DNA from: Haloarcula limicola
GTDB lineage: Archaea > Halobacteriota > Halobacteria > Halobacteriales > Haloarculaceae
Assembly (NCBI RefSeq): GCF_010119205.1
Contig: NZ_WRXM01000001.1
Location: 310,001-374,000, forward strand
DNA length: 64,000 nt
Direction of reading: 5' to 3'
Shown: positions 30,138 to 49,746 of the stretch, in pieces
How the letters are laid out: the number at the start of each line of letters is the position of its first letter
How positions within the stretch are numbered: the stretch's first letter is position 1
Translations under genes and position numbers: made by a program
Notes under the pieces: model-generated
Databases searched by the model: none
Seen by the model: the letters and a program-made list of their open reading frames with translations, nothing else
What the model was told of the DNA's origin: nothing

Positions 30138-30212
30138 GCTCCGTTGGTGTAGTCCGGCCAATCATATCACCCTCTCACGGTGATGACCAGGGTTCGAATC
30201 CCTGACGGAGCA
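30138..30212 (+). tRNA. tRNA-Glu (anticodon CTC)
   Basis: A 75-base cloverleaf: acceptor GCTCCGT/ACGGAGC, anticodon stem TCACC/GGTGA enclosing loop CTCTCAC (anticodon CTC), T arm CAGGG/CCCTG around TTCGAAT, discriminator A at 30212. CCA is not encoded. A TTATAC box (30105-30110) lies about 28-33 bases upstream. A partial copy of its 3' end follows 122 bases later. Confidence 0.97.
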
Positions 30213-30334
30213 CTTCTCTATTCCAACGTGTCGAACGGTGTGTAATTCCAACGTCGAGTGCGACGAAGGGATTCGAATCACGGCGAACCGAGCGCAGCGA
30301 GGTTCGGCATCGGGTTCGAATCCCTGACGGAGCA
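30213..30334 (+). repeat. tRNA-Glu 3'-end duplication unit
   Basis: Positions 30312-30334 repeat exactly the last 23 bases of tRNA-Glu(CTC) (30190-30212): T-arm half, acceptor strand and discriminator. Within the unit an inverted copy of the T-arm core, GGGATTCGAA (30268-30277), can pair with TTCGAATCCC (30315-30324) across a 37-base loop. A 10-base word ATTCCAACGT also occurs twice near the start of the unit. There is no gene in it. The layout matches the units beside the tRNA-like gene at 48911. Confidence 0.85.
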
Positions 30335-48910: not shown

Positions 48911-49011
48911 GGAAGGGTGGCTCAGTGGTAGAGCGCTGCCCGCCAACGTGCCAGAAATTGGCGGCAGTTTCCCTCGCAGGGCTCCGCGTGGTTCGAATCC
49001 CGCCCCTTCCA
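48911..49011 (+). tRNA. atypical tRNA-like gene, isotype not resolved
   Basis: A TATA-like CTATTTA (48876-48882) precedes a 101-base cloverleaf-like RNA. Acceptor GGAAGGG/CCCTTCC with A73, D arm GCTC-AGTGGTA-GAGC. The anticodon arm is a long hairpin: CTGCC..GGCAG continued by GCCAA/TTGGC with one bulged C and an 11-base loop, so there is no normal 7-base anticodon loop with T33, and an intron is possible. A variable region with its own hairpin (CCCT-CGC-AGGG) follows. The T arm pairs GCG(T)GG with CCCGC around TTCGAAT, leaving one bulged T. It may be an intron-containing or class II-like tRNA, or a decayed one. Confidence 0.5.
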
Positions 49012-49370
49012 TCTTGTGGCGAACAGTCCGTGAGCCACAGATGTAGGTCGGGATTCGAGCACGCAAGTCGCAGCGGTCGAACGGAGTGAGGCCGACCGTC
49101 TTGCACCTGTTCGAATCCCGCCCCTTCCACTCTGTCGGGACTCCGTGAGGCGCTCTGTCGCCGAACGACAACGTCCGACAGAGTTGAGTACGCGGAATTC
49201 GCGCCCGAAAGTCGCAGCACGAACGAAGTGAGTGACCGTCTCTCGACGTTCGAATCCCGCCCCTTCCATCTTGTGGCGAACAATTCGTGAGCCACAGATG
49301 TAGGTCGGGATTCGAACACGGCAGGCGCGCGCAGCGAAGCGAGTACGTCTTGCACCTGTTCGAATCCCGC
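49012..49370 (+). repeat. tandem copies of the tRNA 3' end with inverted T-arm words
   Basis: The last 21 bases of the tRNA-like gene (48991-49011, GTTCGAATCCCGCCCCTTCC plus A) recur exactly at 49109-49129 and 49248-49268, and in shortened form at 49358-49370. Units 1 and 3 also share about 45 bases of spacer (TCTTGTGGCGAACA, GAGCCACAGATGTAGGTCGG). Each unit has an inverted T-arm word before the direct one; the best pair is CGGGATTCGAAC (49306-49317) with GTTCGAATCCCG (49358-49369), a perfect 12-bp stem. No gene is present; minus-strand frames here are artefacts of the repeats. Confidence 0.85.
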
Positions 49371-49746
49371 TCTGCGATCGCGTAAAGCTCCAATAACGCG
49401 GGGTAGACGACCAGCGACGGCTGTTCATCTGTGAGTGGTACGGAAAGTAGGGGGTGGGGGGTGCAGGGCACCAGAACGGTGCCGTATCTAATCGGTAAGC
49501 GGGGTGCATAAAATATCTTCTTGCCAAATTATCAACAGCGATACTCGGAGGAAAATAGTGGCCGCAGTCGCTCGTTTCCGAGGTCGGCATCGAGAACCGA
49601 GATAGCAGTTGCAGACGCTATACGCGCTCCTCGAGAAGGTAACGTCGAAAGGATTGTGCGTGGGTGCTGATCCCGGGTAGGGAGAGCACCTGCATCGTGT
49701 GGCGGCATCGCCGCCACGGTGTCGAGGGCGACGCCCTCGCGTGCGA
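49371..49746. other. non-coding gap with two 3-base-loop hairpins
   Basis: No gene is seen. The right end, just past the 3' end of tRNA-Leu on the minus strand, holds GTGGCGGC-ATC-GCCGCCAC (49699-49717) and CGAGGGC-GAC-GCCCTCG (49723-49739). Further left are GGCACC-AGAAC-GGTGCC near 49468 and an AT-rich patch around 49507-49560. Confidence 0.6.

Follow-up and report, generated by a model that had tools for sequence, protein, structure and literature searches.

Why should the 3' end of a tRNA gene recur in tandem directly behind the gene itself? This question is raised by an array in Haloarcula limicola that lies behind a tRNA-Trp-like gene in the window, by which we mean the whole stretch of 64,000 nucleotides that was analysed (contig NZ_WRXM01000001.1, positions 310,001 to 374,000). 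The tail of the gene, (G)TTCGAATCCCGCCCCTTCCA, starts at positions 48991, 49109, 49248 and 49358, the last copy being truncated, in agreement with an original prediction of three downstream copies of a 21-base tail at spacings of 118, 139 and 110. The array has the following parts, in which A, B and A' denote the three successive units.

48911..49011, + strand: tRNA-like host gene, called tRNA-Trp (CCA, 101 nt) by ARAGORN with introns allowed; Rfam tRNA 45.6 bits, cut-off 29
48992..49011, + strand: repeated segment, the tRNA tail from T54 to the discriminator, by repeat comparison
49013..49040, + strand: unit A hairpin 1, GTGGC-GAAC..GTGA-GCCAC, by fold and family pattern
49046..49061, + strand: unit A inverted T-arm, which is the left arm of hairpin 2; pair 88% complementary
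49062..49108, + strand: unit A hairpin 2 core, AGTCGCAGCG..CGAACGGAGTGAG..CGACCGTCT, with matches in many genomes
49110..49129, + strand: tail copy 1, which is the right arm of hairpin 2; 20/20 identical
49130..49248, + strand: unit B; its ortholog in the relative G026 lies directly 3' of the tRNA and is 83% identical
49130-49183, + strand: unit B's own hairpin 1, CTCTGTCGG..CCGACAGAG
49193, + strand: unit B degenerate inverted T-arm, CGGAATTCGCG
49220-49232, + strand: unit B tip, CGAACGAAGTGAG
49249..49268, + strand: tail copy 2; 20/20 identical
49269..49357, + strand: unit A', by fold and by 93% identity to unit A over 81 bp; core with GCGAAGCGAG tip
49270-49297, + strand: unit A' hairpin 1
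49303-49318, + strand: unit A' inverted T-arm
49358..49370, + strand: tail copy 3, truncated after CCCGC

The inverted T-arms at 49046-49061 and 49303-49318 are 88-100% complementary to the next tail copy and pair with it. The claim that every unit carries such an arm thus holds clearly for the first and third units, and has to be relaxed for the second, where the arm is degenerate. The spacer said to be common to units 1 and 3 was confirmed by the match between A and A', which falls to 81% over the whole unit; units A and B are 60% identical. The arm pair GATTCGA..TTCGAATC occurs five times in the window, both strands counted, at three places, one of which is the flank of tRNA-Glu(CTC) (shuffles expect 0.00), and both window units fold strongly (DNA parameters, z about -3.4). 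In an Rfam search with E up to 1, tRNA was the sole match and the rtT family was absent. The host gene at 48911-49011 is itself odd, with an extended anticodon arm bearing a conserved GCCAGA loop, a bulged T-stem and an extra hairpin-like variable region; it is conserved across the genus beside sdhA and a cupin gene, and its ARAGORN label varies among relatives between Trp, Arg(cct) and Arg(acg). On the 3' side of the array, positions 49449-49550 hold a G-rich tract (GGGGGTGGGGGG), a palindrome (GGCACCAGAACGGTGCC) and an A/T-rich stretch, a block that nearly every member of the genus keeps at this place, with or without units.

The array is one instance of a feature spread through the class Halobacteria. 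Within this genome, in a census built from fetched regions, 20/43 tRNA genes have at least one copy of their own 20-base tail (16/20 or better identity) no more than 600 nt downstream and 0/43 have one upstream, and the tails of other tRNAs occur in 3.5% of the downstream regions of these 43 genes; the copies are therefore tied to their own host tRNA, on its 3' side only. The count of 20/43 would increase if degenerate units visible by eye were included. A second host with a single unit lies in the window itself.

30138..30213, + strand: tRNA-Glu(CTC), the second unit host in the window
30214..30334, + strand: single unit behind tRNA-Glu, with hairpin arms at 30270-30322 and a tail copy at 30315-30334

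Across the class, the arm pair GATTCGA..TTCGAATC, its halves separated by 28-58 bases, was found in 106/116 Halobacteria genomes, with zero matches for the reversed control, and the form that fits tRNAs with a TTCAAAT loop, GATTTGA..TTCAAATC, in 107/116, with three control matches in total. These search patterns are strict, and apparent absence in some genomes may reflect divergence. In a phylum sample, most Halobacteriales were positive, compared with 9 of about 200 other genomes, which had one or two matches each. Sampling took the first locus per genome and was therefore not random; nearly all sampled units follow a tRNA, usually at 30-60 nt from its end, and in nearly all of them the right arm runs on into the acceptor half of the unit's own host tRNA. 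Units built alike thus stand behind many tRNAs class-wide, consistent with the suggestion of a small non-autonomous element targeting T-loops, and the search for similar units behind other tRNAs and in related genomes, on which that suggestion had been staked, was successful. The palindrome TTCGAA proposed as the target is dispensable, because tRNAs with TTCAAAT carry units equally often. In the open-access literature, we found no description of tRNA-tail hairpin cassettes.

Comparison between relatives revealed that whole units are present or absent. At tRNA-Glu, this genome (G000) has one unit and G026 has none; the G000 flank after the tail copy matches the G026 flank right after tRNA-Glu at 80% (shuffled mean 50%, maximum 56%), and this alignment extends through to the next gene. 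The tRNA-Glu flanks are empty in most Haloarcula relatives, and a few have units. At tRNA-Trp, the arrangement is tRNA-B in G026 and tRNA-A-B-A' in G000, with the two B units 83% identical, and arrays combine different cassettes. At both tRNAs, the difference between relatives is exactly one unit, with the direct repeat formed by the tail, in a comparison that is unpolarised. Duplication extends to the spacer in about 15-18/74 arrays, which means that some arrays are produced by plain tandem duplication; a target-site duplication that simply copies the tail and its flank was rejected as the general explanation, as it accounts for about 15-18/74 arrays only. Overall, whole-unit presence and absence and a repeated segment that starts at the T-loop add to the element reading, and a check for a single recent duplication as sole origin of the copies did not overturn it. 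In tRNA-Leu(caa) of this genome (L093), the repeated segment is longer than usual: instead of starting at the T-loop, it takes in some of the variable arm, and hairpins lie within it.

The units share a fixed order: tRNA tail, hairpin 1, a short spacer and hairpin 2, whose right arm enters the next tail copy. Each such cassette is about 100-140 bp long and non-coding. Hairpin 2 consists of the inverted T-arm, a type-specific linker, a core with a tandem G.A tip (CGARCGNAGYGAG and relatives), a further linker, and the T-arm with the tail, and a few linker-and-core types recur across genera. In the first unit behind the tRNA-Trp-like gene, the core is of type A here and shorter or different in G014 and G001, with similar arms, indicating that the arms are retained as the cores change. 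Covariation with the host tRNA was seen in the left arm of hairpin 2 at tRNA positions 57, 62, 63 and 64, but not at 65. Two properties of hairpin 2 count against the cassette reading: the inverted arm matches the host tRNA despite lying inside the cassette, unlike in an ordinary element, and cores are common to different tRNAs, which exchange of tails only fails to explain. Hairpin-2 cores fold better in the sense than in the antisense strand, a difference rejected as an RNA signal because it is due at least partly to the tandem G.A tips. A second build occurs at two loci of this genome (L071 and L072), in which the inverted arm copies the acceptor half (TGGACTCGCCG..CGGCGAGTCCA) and the linkers are GAACATC and GCTCAATCC.

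Whether the stems are paired as RNA or as DNA can be read from their mismatches, since G-U is tolerated by RNA stems. In hairpin 2, G.T mismatches numbered 11 and A.C mismatches 22, but these counts are confounded by register, and the cleaner test on hairpin 1 was therefore used; a test on the arms revealed a G.T excess at one position only, opposite T54, which looks like a cassette-type effect. Hairpin 1 typically has the form TTTTG-NNN-C-GA..GA-G-N'N'N'-CAAA, directly after the tail, and starts 0-5 nt past tRNAs. With the inner NNN left free, the pattern matched 150/391 Halobacteria genomes (reversed control, 0), and all 30 of the 30 loci fetched lie behind a tRNA, most immediately at its end and the others behind a tail copy. 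In the genome collection, haloarchaeal matches are mostly behind tRNAs, and scattered bacterial matches are elsewhere. One bacterial repeat, TTTTGGCGCGAGCGAAGCGAGCGCCAAA, is present in several copies away from tRNAs in Halpernia frigidisoli (L220, L227, L229, L232 and L270), a likeness due either to chance or to convergence. The free NNN positions were complementary in 292/312 pairs, compared with 164 when the arms were re-dealt. Among the mismatches, G.T numbered 6 and A.C 9, compared with 23 and 4, respectively, in the acceptor stems of the same loci; given the acceptor stems, a G.T share as low as that of hairpin 1 has p = 7e-5. Hairpin 1 thus covaries and does not favour G-U over A-C in its stem changes, as a structured RNA would, and its pairing therefore seems, from modest counts, to be kept or made at the DNA level.

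The explanation we favour, tentatively, is that the array consists of stacked DNA cassettes, non-coding and bearing hairpins. The tail would serve for their gain and loss at the 3' ends of tRNAs. From the sequences we infer insertion in a folded form, a role for the inverted T-arm and a direction of change. A cassette would enter as a folded single strand at a T-loop, either that of the tRNA or that of a tail copy, and its entry would duplicate the tail and leave the tRNA intact. New cassettes would mostly adjoin the tRNA, and arrays would enlarge or contract via homologous recombination between tails. The inverted T-arm may be a guide that pairs with the T-arm, or an arm produced by fold-back copying, and the candidate enzyme is a tyrosine recombinase, of host or viral origin, or something else that acts on folded DNA. 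A bolder version, which we hold to be somewhat doubtful, is that these are undescribed haloarchaeal mobile non-coding cassettes that insert as folded single-stranded DNA into T-loops, with an antisense T-arm guiding them to the host tRNA and a carried tail by which the tRNA survives. If the cassette explanation is true, a whole archaeal class bears an unnoticed repeat family tied to a highly conserved gene set. The host-matched inverted arm together with wobble-free covariation suggests that some process works on tRNA genes while their DNA is folded. Tail copies confuse the annotation of tRNAs and att sites, units read antisense yield long spurious ORFs, and why insertions favour tRNA 3' ends becomes testable in the genetically tractable Haloferax and Haloarcula.

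The strongest rival to the cassette reading is a mutational by-product, in which replication slippage and template switching at hairpins beside tRNA genes copy the tail in tandem and the T-arm inverted, and palindrome-correcting copying keeps the arms complementary, with neither element nor function. The host-matched inverted arm, the symmetric mismatches and the unit-level tandem duplications all fit this process, as does a protein gene followed by similar hairpins (L147, G000:C2:613950-614350), where about 80 bp of the gene's 3' end are duplicated downstream and two such hairpins split the second copy, which resembles the tRNA case. It leaves unexplained the conserved cassette types, with fixed linkers and tips in many genera, and the start of hairpin 1 within 0-5 nt of tRNAs, and we regard it as doubtful. 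Less probable still is a functional trailer RNA, with the tRNA transcript reading through the unit and a structured RNA being released. The fixed orientation, the placement of units only 3' of tRNAs, the strong fold of both window units and the covarying stems would suit such an RNA, but hairpin 1 lacks the wobble preference that acceptor stems have, units are missing from many orthologous tRNAs of the same genus, and no Rfam family besides tRNA matches; we consider this reading unlikely.

Stacked attachment-site scars of ordinary viruses or plasmids integrated in the tRNA, which the original prediction had also offered, are a poor fit and quite improbable. Tail repeats do flank each unit, as direct repeats of the tRNA 3' end should at such scars, the repeated segment starts at the T-loop, a usual boundary of integrases, and haloarchaeal integrations that leave tRNA-end duplications have been reported (PMC3119063). 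Against this, the units are uniform in their two-hairpin anatomy, vary little in size and reuse the same core types, unlike random remnants, and they contain no gene, nor an integrase gene or remnants of one. The exact unit pattern was absent from the viral collection, in which six contigs matched hairpin 1, none of them near a tRNA. As had been predicted, there is no integrase nearby: tyrosine recombinase matches (PF00589) fall at five loci in the genome, one of them below the cut-off, the closest about 97 kb from the array, and no enzyme could be linked to the units. The least probable reading is that an IS200/IS605-type (Y1) transposase mobilises the units as a REP-like or palindrome-associated element. 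It is in keeping with two hairpins per unit and with the recurrence of the hairpin tips in the REP-like arrays that follow protein genes, but this genome has no match to the Y1 transposase family PF01797, and genomes without pattern hits do carry it (10 matches in G068 and 2 in G071); a Y1 transposase was accordingly rejected as the necessary enzyme. The REP-like arrays of this genome (L142-L159) have the CGARCGNAGYGAG tips and stems that are variable yet complementary (GAGGGGC..GGCCCTC and others). A further repeat, CCACCTTTTTC..GTGGGCGAAAAAGG, with internal hairpins, is found behind tRNAs and genes of this genome (L065, L076, L079, L151 and L153) and looks like a separate small element.

Among known systems, the 178-bp repeats of Escherichia coli tyrT are tandem units directly behind a tRNA, each with about 19 bases of its 3' end, and are said to release the structured rtT RNA. 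The haloarchaeal units are likewise tandem and carry the host tRNA tail behind the tRNA gene. They differ in that rtT is one locus, whereas they follow many tRNAs throughout the class; they also come in several cassette types, possess two hairpins and an inverted T-arm, and are without an RNA wobble signature. Integron attC arrays share with them folded-strand hairpins, conserved boxes, inner unpaired linkers, a variable tip and an arrayed position beside a fixed site. However, the haloarchaeal core is GTTCRAA (right arm GTTCRAAT, with C at the fourth position), unlike the GTTRRRY of attC, and, unlike integron cassettes, the haloarchaeal cassettes are without ORFs and have arms that follow the host tRNA. 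Archaeal tyrosine recombinases of the SNJ2, SSV and pNOB8 types also act at the 3' ends of tRNAs, and a tail brought in with the element makes the tRNA whole again (PMC8371274), but their elements are kilobases long with an integrase gene, compared with non-coding units of about 100-140 bp. In Methanopyrus kandleri, the palindrome CGTTA N9 TAACG stands 10 bp behind about half of the tRNA genes, a palindromic motif at a fixed distance behind archaeal tRNA genes as here; unlike the haloarchaeal units, it is a single motif, reported from that species only, with no tail copy and no array (PMC5217627). Finally, REP/BIME sequences and haloarchaeal PATEs are, like the units, short palindromic non-coding repeats present many times per genome, from which the units differ in the absence of a Y1 transposase here, in their host-matched arms and in being tied to tRNA 3' ends.
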